From assembly GCF_000798815.1 (NCBI RefSeq), contig NZ_JTLD01000016.1:1-64000 (forward strand): a stretch of 64,000 bases of DNA, in the 5' to 3' direction. This DNA comes from Alistipes sp. ZOR0009. Its GTDB lineage: Bacteria; Bacteroidota; Bacteroidia; Bacteroidales; ZOR0009. Shown piece after piece: positions 29,539-54,047 of the stretch. Under the pieces are notes generated by a model. That model was not told the DNA's origin and searched no databases. It saw only the letters and a list, made by a program, of their open reading frames with translations. The first letter of the stretch is position 1, and each line of letters starts with the position of its first letter. Made by a program: the position numbers and the translations under genes.

Positions 29539-29550
29539 GTCCCAGTAAAT

Positions 29551-29727
29551 TTCTTCGTTGTCTCTTCTCTTCGATGGTATTTCGCGTAAAATTTCTTCGT
29601 TATCTCTTCTCTTCGATGGTATATCGCGTAAAATTTCTTCGTTGTCTCTTCTCTTCGATAGTATATCGCATAAAATTTCTTCGTTGTCTCTTCTCTTCGA
29701 TGGTATATTGCGTAAAATTTCTTCGAT
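29551..29727. repeat. 42-bp tandem repeat array, four full units and one partial
   Basis: Units start at 29551, 29593, 29635, 29677 and 29719, each with TTCTTCGTT, TCTCTTCTCTTCGAT and a TATATCGCGTAAAAT-like end. Units differ at one to three bases. The period is exactly 42 bp, so overlapping reading frames stay open on both strands; these are not genes. Confidence 0.92.
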
Positions 29728-45642: not shown

Positions 45643-46224
45643 TTAGTTCTTTACGGTGATTGAAGGATCCCATGCAAAGTATCCGTATAAGGATTGGTTG
45701 CCGTCTCCATCTCTCTTGTAAAGGCCAAAGTGGCAGCTGTAAGCTTCATGACCAGGATTGTCTATTCTTGCTTCGGTACTCCAGAACGACTGATTGGTAT
45801 ATGTTGCAGGAACAAACGTTTTAGGAGTTGGCATAGCAGACATTTTGGTGTCAATAATATTTCTTACGTAATCGTCATCAAAGACATGATCGCCATTTAG
45901 GTACTTAATTTTGTAAAGAATTACGCTATTGTCAAAGTTGTTGGACTCTGAAACGGCGCTCCAATGAATAGGTTCTCCAACTTGTGCCTTAATTTCAAGA
46001 TCCCCAGTACCAGATCCAACAACGGTTTGGCTTCTTGTGGCAACCATGTAGGCGTAGTTGTGCTCTATCCATGTAGGATTGTTAGGATCTTGACTTGGAG
46101 TCTTTTTGTCATTGATAATGGAATCTGTATCTATTATCATGTTGATAAATACAGTGTTTAACGAGCTATTTAATACGACTTGATCTAGCACCTCTTGAGT
46201 GCCTGTTTGATTGTTTTGTCCCAT
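45643..46224 (-). CDS. AidA/PixA-family inclusion-body protein
   Basis: The 193-residue protein matches the AidA/PixA family by motif. IIDTDSIINDKKTPSQDPNNPT is followed by the YMVATRS segment, GDLEIKAQVGEPIHWSAVSESNNFDNSVILYKI and the closing FGLYKRDGDGNQSLYGYFAWDP. PixA forms cytoplasmic crystalline inclusions in Xenorhabdus, and AidA is quorum-sensing-regulated in Burkholderia and Ralstonia; neither has a known enzymatic role. There is no signal peptide. In Bacteroidota it is a scattered accessory gene, so transfer is possible. It is transcribed alone, with its own terminator. Confidence 0.85.
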   Translation of the reverse strand: MGQNNQTGTQEVLDQVVLNSSLNTVFINMIIDTDSIINDKKTPSQDPNNPTWIEHNYAYMVATRSQTVVGSGTGDLEIKAQVGEPIHWSAVSESNNFDNSVILYKIKYLNGDHVFDDDYVRNIIDTKMSAMPTPKTFVPATYTNQSFWSTEARIDNPGHEAYSCHFGLYKRDGDGNQSLYGYFAWDPSITVKN

Positions 46225-46495
46225 GTGTATACTACATCCAATAAATGCCTACTCTTTGGCTTTTCGGCTTCTGCCACCTCGTTTTTTGGGGAATGGGGCT
46301 AAACCCTCGCTGCAGCTGTTAGTATCATGATGATCAAATTTATGGGACCTTATTCGTAATGTCAATGTAGGAAGTAAACATTAGCTTGCAGTAAGTAGTA
46401 ATTCACAAAGCGCACGTATTCAGCGGTCGATTAAGAAGGCGTTGTCCTTTTTATATAGATTAAGACTACGCTTTTTTTTATCAGGATATAAGGGC

Positions 46496-46563
46496 TAACT
46501 TTGTTCAAAATCGTGCTACAGTATTGTGTAGCGGGGGGGCTAGCCGTATAGCCTCGGCTTTTA
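46496..46563 (+). promoter_or_regulatory. Promoter and structured leader
   Basis: TAACTTTG (46496-46503) is an exact -7 match. A transcript starting near 46510 would begin with a perfect stem GCTACA / TGTAGC (46515-46532, 6-nt loop). A second stem AGCCG / CGGCT (46542-46559) is followed by TTTTAG and could act as a weak terminator or attenuator. The 30-codon frame starts 28 bp later. The -33 region is poor. Confidence 0.5.
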
Positions 46564-46587
46564 GATAAATTTTAAAAACTCAATTTT

Positions 46588-46680
46588 ATGAAAACGTTAA
46601 GAACAAATCTCGCTTTGGCCAAGGATGGCTTTGGCCCACAGGGCCATATTCGTTTGCTCATCAGCCAGCAATATTTCTAA
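46588..46680 (+). CDS. Putative 30-residue small protein or leader peptide
   Basis: ATG 46588 opens a 30-codon frame ending TAA at 46678-46680. It encodes MKTLRTNLALAKDGFGPQGH followed by IRLLISQQYF, with no signal peptide. It lies inside the predicted leader and stops 15 bp before the gene at 46696. The DNA of codons 15-21 forms a perfect stem TGGCCC-ACA-GGGCCA. It could be a real small protein coupled to the next gene, or a leader peptide whose translation alters that stem. There is no direct proof of translation. Confidence 0.45.
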   Translation: MKTLRTNLALAKDGFGPQGHIRLLISQQYF

Positions 46681-46695
46681 CTAAATTTTTTCATC

Positions 46696-47388
46696 ATGAC
46701 CAAATTAAGAAACAGCGAGGTAATTCCTGTTGCGGAATTGGCCTCTAAGCATTTACAAAGCGATATTAGCCATTTTAGGGCATTCTCAAGCTCGTTTACC
46801 AACGATTACGTTGCGAAGTTCAACCAGTCTATAGAAGAACTTCGACCTCAGGTTAACCCACCAGAGCTTAGCCTTAAGATTTTTGAACTCAAGAAAAAAT
46901 ACCATTCAACGCTTCATGAGATTAGAACGAAGCTAACTGCCATCGACGACATGTGCCTGCTGTACAAGAATAGGCTGGTTGTTCCGCGCGGACAATTCAG
47001 AATTTACGAGGTGCGTCGCGAGGTACGTAAAGAAAATATTAAAGGGGTGTATTCTGGATTAGAGGCCACTTTTATGGCCATTCGGAAGAACATGCTGAAG
47101 TTAGAAAGCGTTGGGTTTAATAATTTGCTTATCGAGGAGTTGGACGATTTGCGGAAGCAGCTGCTTTCGATAAGTAAGGAGCTGGATGGCTTAGTTGCTC
47201 AGCAAAAGGAACTCTTTGCGTCTAACCAAGAAAAGATATCACAGCTTCAGTCTCAAGTTTCTTTTATCAATAAGTATGGGAAGCTGGTGTTTCGGAATGC
47301 CGATCCTCAGAGGCGGGAGGTGTACACCATGGCTCATGCCATAAATGAGGTTCGCTCTCAGCAGCGGGCTATGCTTAAGTCCGAATAG
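46696..47388 (+). CDS. Hypothetical coiled-coil protein
   Basis: The 230-residue protein is cytoplasmic, lacks cysteine-rich or catalytic motifs and should be helical. Residues 55-90 and 145-185 have heptad patterns (LRKQLLSISKELDGLVAQQK and SQLQSQVSFINKYGK). No family recognised. It lies behind the structured leader and small open frame and is followed by a strong terminator. The organisation is like that of other lineage-specific proteins in this window. Confidence 0.75.
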   Translation: MTKLRNSEVIPVAELASKHLQSDISHFRAFSSSFTNDYVAKFNQSIEELRPQVNPPELSLKIFELKKKYHSTLHEIRTKLTAIDDMCLLYKNRLVVPRGQFRIYEVRREVRKENIKGVYSGLEATFMAIRKNMLKLESVGFNNLLIEELDDLRKQLLSISKELDGLVAQQKELFASNQEKISQLQSQVSFINKYGKLVFRNADPQRREVYTMAHAINEVRSQQRAMLKSE

Positions 47389-47422
47389 CCGACATATTTC
47401 CAATCAACATAAGTTAAGTTAA

Positions 47423-47450
47423 GTAGAGCAGCTTTGCTTTGGTGCTCTAC
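47423..47450 (+). terminator. Hairpin after the unknown gene
   Basis: Perfect 8-bp stem GTAGAGCA / TGCTCTAC with a 12-nt loop, 35 bp after the stop; the following T run is offset (47461 on). Confidence 0.5.
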
Positions 47451-47541
47451 CGTAGCGCTATTTTTTGCTGGTAGTGTACAAGGCGCCATGGTGGCATCGG
47501 AGCATTGCTTGTAATGCTGTTTTCGAAGTGTATAGTGTGAG

Positions 47542-47572
47542 GGGAGGCTGCGTGAGCAACCTCCCTTTTTTA
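47542..47572 (+). terminator. Intrinsic terminator on the plus strand
   Basis: Stem GGGAGG-TGC / GCA-CCTCCC around a GTGA loop, with bulges, followed by TTTTTTAT. It probably ends the transcript from 46496. Confidence 0.75.
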
Positions 47573-47587
47573 TTAAAGCATGAAGGA

Positions 47588-48508
47588 TTACTTAAATATC
47601 TCTCGGTTTAGGATTTTGCTGAATTTTTCGGCACCCGACGAATTCAGGTGGTCGTTGTCGTAAAAATCTGGTAGTGCAAACCGAGGGTCGGTAAAGTAGC
47701 TGAAGTAGCGGCAGTGATGCTTGCCGGTAATGTAGGCTTCCGCCTGACTATTTTTCTTCACGATGGTGCTATCTATGTGCCTATAGTAGGTGGGGAGGAC
47801 AGGAGGCGTTATAATTATAGGTGTTATATTCCTTTTCTGGAGTTGGCTTATAAGACGCTCTAAGTCTCTTACGTTCTCGTTAAACCGCTTTACCTTGTAG
47901 CTTTGCGTATGAAATTCAGCCCTTTTACGTCCTAGGCTGTCGCTTATTCTTGTATTGGGATTGGCCGATGTAAGCCCAACGAAACCATTGGATTTAAATC
48001 CATCGACAAGGTTGGTTTGAAATCCATTTTCAAGGTACTTAAGCGACATCTGTGGAGTGTACAGAAAAAGTTTGCTGTATCTTTTGATGTCAACCTGATC
48101 GAGTTCAGGGTAAGAGATATCCCAAAATTGGGAGTAGTAGTAGTCTCTCCAGCTCTCTATTCCATCATGCATTTGGGTTCCCAACGAAAAGTAGGATAGG
48201 GTAATTACGACGTACTTCAGTTTCGGCATTTTGTCAACATGCGAGAGAGTTAACCGGGTATCGTAGAAAAGGGTTTGGCTAATGTTGCTAAGGTTAAAGC
48301 CTTTTAGGTCGAAGTAGTCGGGATTAATCCCGTAGGTGGCCTGCGACGATCCCAAGACCAGAACCTCAATCGACTTCATCTGCTTTTCCAGACATTCTTT
48401 TTTGTAGGTATAGCTGTTGTTTATTCGGCCTAGGCTATACTCCATGTACGAAAAAAAGATTACTAGCGGCAGTAGGAAGTATAGCGATCTTAAAAGAAAC
48501 TTTTGCAT
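47588..48508 (-). CDS. SGNH-like protein of an O-acetylation pair
   Basis: The 306-residue protein has an N-terminal membrane anchor (residues 5-24). It carries GDSL/SGNH-like blocks: block I EVLVLGSSQATYGINP (the second Ser is the likely nucleophile, near residue 55) and block V NDHLNSSGAEKF with Asp and His near 287-290. This matches AlgX/AlgJ-like or DltD-like partners that accept or transfer acetyl groups in the periplasm. It follows the MBOAT gene by 12 bp, so the two make an O-acetylation system. No polysaccharide cluster surrounds it, and the acceptor is unknown. Confidence 0.82.
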   Translation of the reverse strand: MQKFLLRSLYFLLPLVIFFSYMEYSLGRINNSYTYKKECLEKQMKSIEVLVLGSSQATYGINPDYFDLKGFNLSNISQTLFYDTRLTLSHVDKMPKLKYVVITLSYFSLGTQMHDGIESWRDYYYSQFWDISYPELDQVDIKRYSKLFLYTPQMSLKYLENGFQTNLVDGFKSNGFVGLTSANPNTRISDSLGRKRAEFHTQSYKVKRFNENVRDLERLISQLQKRNITPIIITPPVLPTYYRHIDSTIVKKNSQAEAYITGKHHCRYFSYFTDPRFALPDFYDNDHLNSSGAEKFSKILNREIFK

Positions 48509-50933: not shown

Positions 50934-53051
50934 CTAGCTCGCTGTGGTGGTTTCAAAAAGCTTTCTGTCGGCAAACTCCTGCTGCTTGCCCAGGTTCCAC
51001 TCGCTTACAGGGCGCATGTAGCCCACAATTCGGCTGTACACCTCGCTCTTGCTTCCGCATGTGGGGCACTCGAAATGCTCGCCTTGGAGGTAGCCATGCG
51101 AGGGGCAGATGCTAAAGGTGGGAGAGATGGTGATGTAGGGCAGCCGGTAGCCGCTGGTGATTTTCCTTACCAGATTTTTGGCCGCTGCAGCCGTCATACC
51201 GCTATCTCCGGTAAATAGGTGCAGTACGGTACCGCCGGTGTACAGCGTTTGCAGCTCGTCCTGATGGTTAAGCACCTCGAACATATCCGAGCTGTAGCCT
51301 ACAGGCAGCTGGGTAGAGTTGGTATAGTAGGGTTCTGCGCCTTGCTGCTGCTGCTTATGGTTGGCCACCAGTATTTCGGGATGCAGGTTGACGTCCATCT
51401 TGGCGAAACGGTAGGCGGTACTCTCGGCAGGGGTTGCCTCTAGGTTGTAGATGCTGCCTGTTTGCTCCTGAAACTGCTCTAGCATGAGCCTCATAAAGTG
51501 CATTACCTGCTTGGAGAAGGCTAGCCCATCGGGATGCGCAATCCCTTTTCCGAGGAAGTTCAGGCAGCATTCGTTCATCCCGTTGATGCCGATGGTGGAG
51601 AAGTGGTTGCTCCAGTAGCAGCCAAACCGTTGGTGTATGTGGCGCAGGTAGTACTTCGAGTAGGGGTAAAGCCCATTCTCGGTATGGCGTTCAATCACCT
51701 TTCTCTTTATTTCGAGGCTCTCCTTGGCCAAGGTCATGTAGTACTCTAGGCGGTCGAAAAACTCCTCCTCGGTTTTCGACTCGTAGCCGATGCGCGGAAG
51801 GTTTAGCGTCACCACGCCCACCGAGCCGGTAAGCGGATTGGCGGCAAACAGCCCGCCACCACGGCGGTTAAGCTCCCGCTTGTCGAGGCGAAGGCGGCAG
51901 CACATGCTGCGCACGTCGTCGGGCTTCATGTCAGAGTTTACGAAGTTGGAGAAGTAGGGGATACCGTACTTGGCGGTCATCTCCCAGATGCCCTCGTACT
52001 CGCTGTTGTTCCAGTCAAAGTCGGGGGTGATGTTGTAGGTAGGTATGGGGAACGAGAAGAGGCTGCCCGCGGCATCGCCCTCGCTCATCACCTCGGCAAA
52101 TGCCTTGTTAAGCATGGTTACCTCGTGCTGAAAGTCGCCATACACGCACTGCTGCAGCTCGCCAGCGTAGGCAACGGCCTCGTCCTTCAGGAATTCGGGC
52201 ACCACCAAATCCATCGTTATGTTGGTAAATGGGGTTTGGAATCCTACCCGCGTAGGCACGTTGAGGTTAAAGAGAAACTCCTGTAGGGCCTGCTTCACCT
52301 GCGCGTAGTCGAGCTCGTCGAAACGGATGAAGGGCGCCAGCAGCGTGTCGAAGTTGGAGAAGGCCTGCGCGCCGGCGGCCTCGCCCTGCATGGTGTAGAA
52401 GAAGTTTACCACCTGCCCTAGGGCCGTTCTGAAGTGCTTTGCCGGCTTGCTCTGCGCCTTTCCGGTAACGCCTCTAAATCCAGTTAGCAGCAGATCCTTC
52501 AGGTCCCAGCCCACGCAGTATACGCTCAGGAACCCCAAATCGTGGATGTGCATGTAGCCCTGCTTGTGCGCGCCCGATACGCTCTCGGGGTAAAGCTTGT
52601 TGAGCCAGTACTGCGAGGTGATAACCGTAGAGATGTGCTGGTTGAGCCCCTGCAGCGAGTAGCCCGAGTTGGCGCTCTCCTTGATTCTCCAGTCCTGGAG
52701 GTTGAGGTACCCGTCCATCACCTCGATGTTGGTAAGCAGCTCCTTGGTGCTGCGCAGCTCCTCGTGCTTCTTACGGTAGAGCATAAAGGCCTTCAGCAGG
52801 TCGAACTCGCCATGCACAAACAGCGTTTTCTCGATGCAATCCTGCACCTGCTCCACGTGGGGAGTCTCCTTCTCGCACACCTCCACCAGCAGGCGGATGG
52901 CGCTTTGGCTGAGGTTGTACGCGTGCTTGGGGTTAACCTTGCCCGAGGAGCCCATCGCCTTAAGGATGGCATTCTCAATCTTACTTGCTTTAAAAGGAAC
53001 CTGCTCGCCATTGCGCTTTACAATGGTCGTAAAGAGTAGATCACCATTCAT
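50934..53051 (-). CDS. nrdD: Anaerobic ribonucleoside-triphosphate reductase (class III)
   Basis: Makes deoxynucleotides without oxygen, using a glycyl radical. The 705-residue protein starts with an ATP-cone allosteric domain (about 8-100). The barrel follows, with GSLFSFPIPTYNIT and SMCCRLRLDKREL, the latter containing active-site Cys. The C-terminal Cys4 metal site is CPSHGYLQGEHFECPTCG, and the radical Gly is G677 in RIVGYMRPVSEWN. The upstream leader contains a cobalamin riboswitch and terminator, so expression should fall when B12 is abundant. nrdG follows by 1 bp. Confidence 0.96.
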   Translation of the reverse strand: MNGDLLFTTIVKRNGEQVPFKASKIENAILKAMGSSGKVNPKHAYNLSQSAIRLLVEVCEKETPHVEQVQDCIEKTLFVHGEFDLLKAFMLYRKKHEELRSTKELLTNIEVMDGYLNLQDWRIKESANSGYSLQGLNQHISTVITSQYWLNKLYPESVSGAHKQGYMHIHDLGFLSVYCVGWDLKDLLLTGFRGVTGKAQSKPAKHFRTALGQVVNFFYTMQGEAAGAQAFSNFDTLLAPFIRFDELDYAQVKQALQEFLFNLNVPTRVGFQTPFTNITMDLVVPEFLKDEAVAYAGELQQCVYGDFQHEVTMLNKAFAEVMSEGDAAGSLFSFPIPTYNITPDFDWNNSEYEGIWEMTAKYGIPYFSNFVNSDMKPDDVRSMCCRLRLDKRELNRRGGGLFAANPLTGSVGVVTLNLPRIGYESKTEEEFFDRLEYYMTLAKESLEIKRKVIERHTENGLYPYSKYYLRHIHQRFGCYWSNHFSTIGINGMNECCLNFLGKGIAHPDGLAFSKQVMHFMRLMLEQFQEQTGSIYNLEATPAESTAYRFAKMDVNLHPEILVANHKQQQQGAEPYYTNSTQLPVGYSSDMFEVLNHQDELQTLYTGGTVLHLFTGDSGMTAAAAKNLVRKITSGYRLPYITISPTFSICPSHGYLQGEHFECPTCGSKSEVYSRIVGYMRPVSEWNLGKQQEFADRKLFETTTAS

Positions 53052-53123: not shown

Positions 53124-53154
53124 CTATCGCCTTTCACCCGAAAGCTACGAATGT

Positions 53155-53310
53155 TTGGTATCTGGCAGGTCTTCTGACTCGCTCCTCTATTGGTACCTTC
53201 CCATTCGTCCGAACAGTGGTGCATGCCAACGAGTATGATGGAGCTTACAGCTACGGGGATAGTCTTGGATTTTCACCAAATTCCCTATTAATCCATAGAT
53301 GGAACCAAAT
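53155..53310 (-). promoter_or_regulatory. Cobalamin riboswitch upstream of nrdDG
   Basis: On the minus strand it shows AGGGAATTTGGTG near the start, then TATCCCCGTAGCTGTAAGC in the core, and the B12-box motif GTCAGAAGACCTGCC at the end. Order and spacing fit the adenosylcobalamin riboswitch class. Ligand binding should favour the terminator at 53091-53123 and shut off nrdD. Such riboswitches are known to control class I or III ribonucleotide reductases in genomes that also carry the B12-dependent class II enzyme. Confidence 0.93.
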
Positions 53311-53680
53311 ACTAAGTAAAGGTAGGCAATAAGGTCCCCTCCGCGCCACCCCTACTGGTTGGAAGTTATGAACAATTGGCCGTTACGGTTCTGTGCGATT
53401 TCGTATTTGCCTGCTATGTCGTGCGTTATCCTGTTGATAATTTTTGTAATCGCGCTATTCGGCAGGTGGTATGGCGGGATTTGTGGGTTGATGTCGCCCG
53501 CCTAGGCCACAGCTGCTCGTCCCTTTTGGCAGCCTGTTTGCCCGTGGCTTTTGGTGTGGATGGATAGTTTTGGGGATGCCGTAGCCCGCAACCGAGATGC
53601 CACCCGATGCTCCTGCCGTTACCCTCCGGGTGGCGCCCATTCTTTTACTGACAAGTTGGCATGACTAATGCGTTCGGTCT
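53311..53680. other. Non-coding stretch between riboswitch and tandem array
   Basis: This region should hold the nrdDG promoter, but no exact TTTG/TAnnTTTG pair is visible. Open frames here (for example 53376-53567) have low-complexity or atypical composition and no family resemblance. I cannot support a gene. Confidence 0.5.
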
Positions 53681-54047
53681 GCTCACTTCTGTAGGAAAAA
53701 TGGTCGCCAACGGCTCCGTGATCGTTTTTCCTGTAGGATTTGCCCTCCCGTAGTGCTCCGTGATCATTTTTCTTGTAGGATTTGCCCTCCCGTAGTGCTC
53801 CGTGATCGTTTTTCCTGTAGGATTTGCCTTCCCGTAGTGGTCCGTGATCGTTTTTCTTGTAGGATTTGTCATCCCGTACTAGTCCGTGATCATTTTTCTT
53901 GTAGGATTTGCCATCCCGTAGCACTACGTGATCATTTTTCCTGTAGAAGTGAGCTGAACGTACGGCTCCGTCACCTCACTTCTGTAGAAGTAAGCCAACC
54001 GTACGGCTCCGTCATCTCACTTCTGTAGAAGTAAGCCAACCGAACGG
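53681..54047. repeat. Composite 41/42-bp tandem repeat array, nine units
   Basis: Units start at about 53681 (partial), then 53718, 53760, 53802, 53844, 53886, 53928, 53970 and 54011 (partial). The middle units are 42 bp with GTGATC, CTGTAGGATTTGCC and CCCGTAGTGCTCC. The outer units use a 41-bp variant, GTCATCTCACTTCTGTAGAA and AAGCCAACCGTACGGCTCC. The unit at 53928 is a hybrid, starting as one type and ending as the other. There are no spacers. A 14-residue periodic open frame on the minus strand is an effect of the 42-bp period. Confidence 0.92.

Follow-up and report, generated by a model that had tools for sequence, protein, structure and literature searches.

What does a 30-codon frame do that stops just short of a gene, and does it do anything at all? 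This question is raised by a locus in the window (the whole stretch of 64,000 nucleotides of Alistipes sp. ZOR0009 DNA that was analysed), where a TAnnTTTG box, two predicted stem-loops, the short frame, 15 nt of sequence and a gene for a 230-residue protein follow one another on the + strand (Table 1). The frame lies where the earlier note had described it, 15 nt before the gene. When first-order Markov random sequences of matching composition are generated, ∼5% of them contain a frame of 25 codons or more that ends as close to the gene, so the frame by itself is no proof of function; the observation rises above chance because the frame is conserved in a second genome of the genus, G002.

Table 1. 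Features of the leader and gene in the window (nt, nucleotides; G002, second genome of the genus).
Feature	Position	Strand	Remark
Promoter-like stretch AAGGGCTAACTTTGT	46490..46504	+	contains TAnnTTTG box TAACTTTG, 46496-46503
Leader stem-loop 1, 7 pairs	46514..46533	+	predicted fold; sequence not conserved in G002
Leader stem-loop 2, 7 pairs	46536..46555	+	predicted fold; not flagged as terminator
Four T after leader stem-loop 2	46559-46562	+	
Leader frame MKTLRTNLALAKDGFGPQGHIRLLISQQYF plus TAA, 30 codons	46588..46680	+	shares reading frame with the 230-residue gene
Hairpin A within leader frame, 8 pairs	46617..46636	+	predicted; possible in G002 too
Hairpin B within leader frame	46632..46646	+	predicted; exclusive with A; present in G002 too
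T-rich 15-nt spacer, frame stop to gene	46681..46695	+	46679-46693 match G002 at 14 of 15 bases
Gene for 230-residue all-helical protein	46696..47388	+	function unassigned

Among 60 related genomes, a close orthologue of the 230-residue gene was found only in G002 (54% identical); three matches in G041 were weak and distant. G001, the other genome of the genus, shows neither the gene nor the leader peptide, though distant paralogues of the gene are present. At the G002 locus, a TAnnTTTG box and a structured leader precede a frame of 31 codons (MRKMLNTKNRWAKDDFGRTGLLYLLLSKQYF), which ends 21 nt ahead of the gene. Aligned with one another, the peptides are identical at 16 of 30 residues, with a single one-codon difference in length, and their conserved blocks lie in the middle and at the C-terminus. 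The best ungapped match between the upstream DNA of the two loci, 46569-46679 in the window, is the frame. Non-conservation of peptide and stem, one half of what the earlier note had named as evidence against its reading, is not what we find: G002 retains the peptide, the stems within the frame and the spacing from frame to gene. This favours the reading of a small frame whose translation is coupled to that of the gene. The immediate neighbours look different, being PixA-like and nucleoside-transporter genes upstream in the window and other frames in G002 (by eye in the latter); in both, an amylase-like frame can be seen by eye no more than a few kb from the gene, and a partly shared neighbourhood is possible. 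The PixA-like inclusion body protein gene (45643-46224, - strand; Pfam PF12306) has an Rfam DUF805b RNA motif (46246-46277, - strand; 41.8 bits) 21 nt upstream of its start. We also considered the frame as a stop-codon readthrough extension of the gene; this is unlikely, as one stop separates the two frames in the window and three do so in G002.

Comparison of the two genomes indicates that the stretch occupied by the frame is under selection. Between the window and G002, synonymous change in the gene has reached saturation (pS 0.86); unconstrained DNA should therefore look random, and the 61 identical bases among the 93 of the frame imply selection. This case for conservation is drawn from two sequences only, those of the window and G002. 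When an equal number of changes was placed at random (100000 trials), the frame remained intact from ATG to stop in 3.4% of trials, the observed similarity score was reached in 1.4%, and both occurred in 0.137%. An amino-acid score test that leaves aside start and stop gave a moderate signal for the frame: P was 0.024, or 0.038 when run from the G002 side and 0.050 once QYF was dropped. For each of ten gene segments of 29 codons, P was 0.002 or less. Selection on the frame is likely to act partly at the amino-acid level. Differences in the frame are spread nearly evenly over codon positions (9, 10 and 12 of 29, as compared with 89, 61 and 143 of 230 in the gene), and selection at the RNA level therefore probably contributes.

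These figures bear on an alternative in which the frame encodes a free-standing small protein, a stable 30-residue product working alongside the helical protein, perhaps by binding it, with the hairpins incidental. A non-synonymous constraint equal to that of the neighbouring gene (pN 0.29 vs 0.31) and the conserved blocks of the peptide would be expected of such a protein. Nevertheless, the flat distribution of changes over codon positions argues against it, as does the kept spacing of hairpins for which it has no need; furthermore, the peptide matched no family in Pfam, NCBIfam, PADLOC or PHROGs, a weak argument for so short a sequence. We consider this alternative unlikely.

The stem that the earlier note had seen inside the frame is there, although as two competing forms. 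Three GGCC blocks lie inside the frame, equally spaced in the window and G002; hairpin A pairs the first with the second and hairpin B the second with the third, so that the middle block is common to both and the two predicted hairpins are mutually exclusive in either genome. Eight pairs of A are possible in both, of which the best G002 fold uses seven, and two window/G002 changes within stem A preserve pairing. At equilibrium B dominates (pair probability 0.81 in the window and 0.95 in G002), A remaining below 0.1 in both. The gene start is predicted to be partially paired in both genomes, with differing partners, and no consistent fold that hides it was found in the comparison of window and G002. 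A long-range pairing between frame start and gene start was rejected, because it appeared in one minimum-energy fold only and was lost when folding began at the presumed transcript start.

An element that works as RNA only, in which the conserved stretch acts through hairpins A and B while the frame is open merely as a by-product, would account for the even spread of changes over codon positions, for the lower synonymous divergence of the frame than of the gene (0.57 vs 0.86), for the equal spacing of the GGCC blocks and for the preserved pairing at both changes in stem A. Such an element would leave to coincidence that the frame is intact from ATG to stop in both genomes, an outcome of the 3.4% class (0.14% with the score). 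Moreover, the RNA of the frame shows no exceptional stability (z -0.48 in the window, -1.59 in G002), and Rfam covariance models at the gathering score gave two matches in the whole window, neither within 46490-46700. We regard this alternative as distinctly unlikely. Elsewhere in the window, a cobalamin riboswitch (53147-53324, - strand; 113.3 bits) lies upstream of a 705-residue frame (50934-53051, - strand), which we take to resemble an anaerobic ribonucleotide reductase.

Upstream of the frame, the case for a promoter is weaker than the earlier note had it. TAnnTTTG is given as the -7 consensus of sigma-ABfr in a passage of PMC7366714, and the note's 'consensus promoter' is a box of this kind. 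However, such boxes are common in the window (67 found vs 58 expected; 15 of 100 shuffles have as many), no -33 TTTG was seen by eye ahead of this one, and a sigma-70 scan (46200-47600) gave no site on the + strand ahead of the gene. The empty scan is expected if, as the same passage has it, the consensus of the phylum is TAnnTTTG. The G002 counterpart of the promoter-like stretch, AAGGGCTATATTTGT, lies at -226 to -212 from the G002 gene; the match between the two has a segment score of 11, where the best score averages 10.0 over 300 Markov-random pairs, and is not significant alone.

The leader segment ahead of the frame, 46504-46587, has a predicted folding energy of -24.6 kcal/mol (z -3.02), a stability reached by 3 of 200 shuffles and consistent with the two stem-loops described before, and the 5' piece of the G002 leader has a z of -4.79, a value that includes some bases upstream of the presumed transcript start. 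Over the full leader up to the gene start, 46504-46710, the stability is ordinary (z -1.40) and was matched by 20 of 200 shuffles. Hairpins are present at the 5' end of both leaders, with differing sequences. The 'T run' that had been reported after the second stem comes down to four T, and a terminator scan did not flag that stem in the window. In G002, a 15-pair hairpin followed by T8 (L003 2366-2331, - strand) lies between promoter box and leader frame and is flagged as terminator-like, in contrast to its window counterpart; early termination in the leader at this hairpin is possible in G002.

The peptide appears confined to a narrow lineage. In its own genome it occurs at this place only. 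A model built from the G000 and G002 sequences found, among 295 genomes of the order, only those two below E 0.01 (next E 0.026). Among 395 genomes of the class, the peptide search gave G000 and one weak match (E 0.0068) that lies inside a 343-residue frame. No peptide match was confirmed in viral contigs, where the in-frame DNA pattern was without match as well, and the leader DNA had no match in plasmids. Short frames do occur upstream of many relatives of the 230-residue gene; by eye, none encodes a peptide like that of the window, either at 12 paralogues within the genus or at 20 loci from other genera, in a survey that leaves out L064, L034, L008-L010, L039-L041, L045-L051 and L066-L070 and in which L031 and L013 are the same gene. 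We found no publication on the leader peptide with the terms and in the collection searched. A leader peptide of known kind in a narrow lineage is the probable description.

The product of the downstream gene is modelled with confidence (mean pLDDT 90.3) as an all-helical protein, for which a Foldseek structure search against the PDB returned no match at E 0.001 or better. The best VIA-align row was a LemA protein (Z 12.1, 121 residues, rmsd 2.6); as this score is within the range usual for helical models, no function was drawn from it. Pfam DUF948 matched at E 0.00014, under its curated cut-off, and family databases otherwise gave only matches that were likewise under curated cut-offs or weak. 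Sequence profiles place the gene as a divergent member of a Bacteroidota helical-protein family. A seven-row profile found members in 12 of 395 genomes of the phylum at E 1e-5 and, at E 0.1, 7, 6 and 7 matches in G000, G001 and G002, respectively; a two-row profile found 12 of 393 genomes of the order at E 1e-10, G000 and G002 included. The gene had no match in phages or plasmids, and none was confirmed in genome contigs or viral contigs.

Distant relatives of the gene are adjoined by degenerate tandem arrays with a period of ∼21 nt or multiples. Within 600 nt upstream, arrays occur at 12 of 20 relatives in other genera (L033, L035, L036, L037, L042, L043, L072, L073, L075, L076, L078 and L081), and within 600 nt downstream at one. 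Among the 12 genus paralogues, the corresponding numbers are none upstream and seven downstream; all downstream arrays, the one in another genus included, are at L053, L054, L055, L056, L058, L061, L065 and L074. Unit sequences vary between most loci, while the period remains near 21. Neither the window gene nor its orthologue in G002 is flanked by an array. None of 13 unrelated control loci of ∼3 kb has one; among blocks of 600 nt, 3 of 106 from the window and 1 of 31 from L007 contain one. The count leaves out L013/L031 (187 nt upstream only), L034, L008, L009, L039-L041, L045-L051, L064 and L066-L070; at L033, L035, L043 and L075 the start used is not a start codon, and their 600-nt stretch is somewhat shifted. 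Because the loci were not randomly drawn and the controls come from other genomes, the association is a lead rather than a result. The uncharacterised helical family, whose genes often have ∼21-nt arrays beside them, may matter more than the leader itself. Within the window, tandem repeats with a period of ∼42 nt or multiples lie at 29547-29725 and 53710-54047.

Taken as a whole, the sequence evidence suggests that the 30-codon frame probably encodes a genuine small leader peptide, of a kind already known, rather than being a frame that arose by chance. A chance frame with chance stems in a 5' untranslated region, for which the ∼5% frequency in random sequences, the commonness of the box and the use of two sequences only can be cited, is very improbable: the conserved frame sits at the corresponding position in G002, and its conservation exceeds what saturated synonymous divergence would leave. 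We prefer the reading that the frame and the 230-residue gene share one mRNA, in which the frame is translated as a leader peptide and coupled to the gene; we judge the chances of this reading to be about even. A promoter near 46496 would give rise to a two-gene mRNA with a structured 5' end; ribosomes would translate the short frame into the 30-residue peptide and, 15 nt on, the helical protein. Ribosomes that end the leader frame would feed or unmask the next start, the position of the ribosome in the frame might pick hairpin A or B and thereby set translation of the gene, and the nascent AKDxFG...QYF peptide would perhaps slow the ribosome. The most specific form of this, a genus-restricted nascent-peptide switch in which the conserved AKDxFGxxG...LLxSxQYF peptide slows its own ribosome, selects A or B and so controls a helical-family gene, is a slim prospect. 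The earlier note had proposed either an attenuation unit or a small protein co-translated with the gene beside it. Of these two, it is the coupled small frame that is favoured; strict attenuation finds no support in the window.

Transcription attenuators of the trp/his type combine a short leader frame with mutually exclusive hairpins that it overlaps. The window frame resembles them in that it overlaps the predicted hairpins A and B. It differs in two defining features: neither the window nor the G002 peptide contains a run of control codons, and in the window no T-run terminator lies in the interval from frame to gene (46680-46696). The terminator scan flags only 46625-46647 and 46632-46646, both in-frame, with the tail TATTCGTTTG and no T run. 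An attenuator of this type is therefore not supported at the window locus.

The resemblance to the leaders of ermC and tetQ is in layout, with a short leader frame and alternative hairpins shortly upstream of a gene; for tetQ of Bacteroides, a passage of PMC5418344 reports translational attenuation through a leader frame and alternative hairpins. Unlike these, the window gene is not known to be a resistance gene, and no consistent fold that would hide its start was found. Long 5' UTRs of Bacteroides thetaiotaomicron contain short frames reminiscent of leader peptides, which their authors describe, in the relevant passage, as not validated (PMC7366714). The window frame is likewise a small frame in a Bacteroidota leader; in contrast to those, it is conserved in two species, 15-21 nt before the gene. 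It thus brings cross-species conservation and testable parts to a phylum whose leader frames that passage notes without validation.
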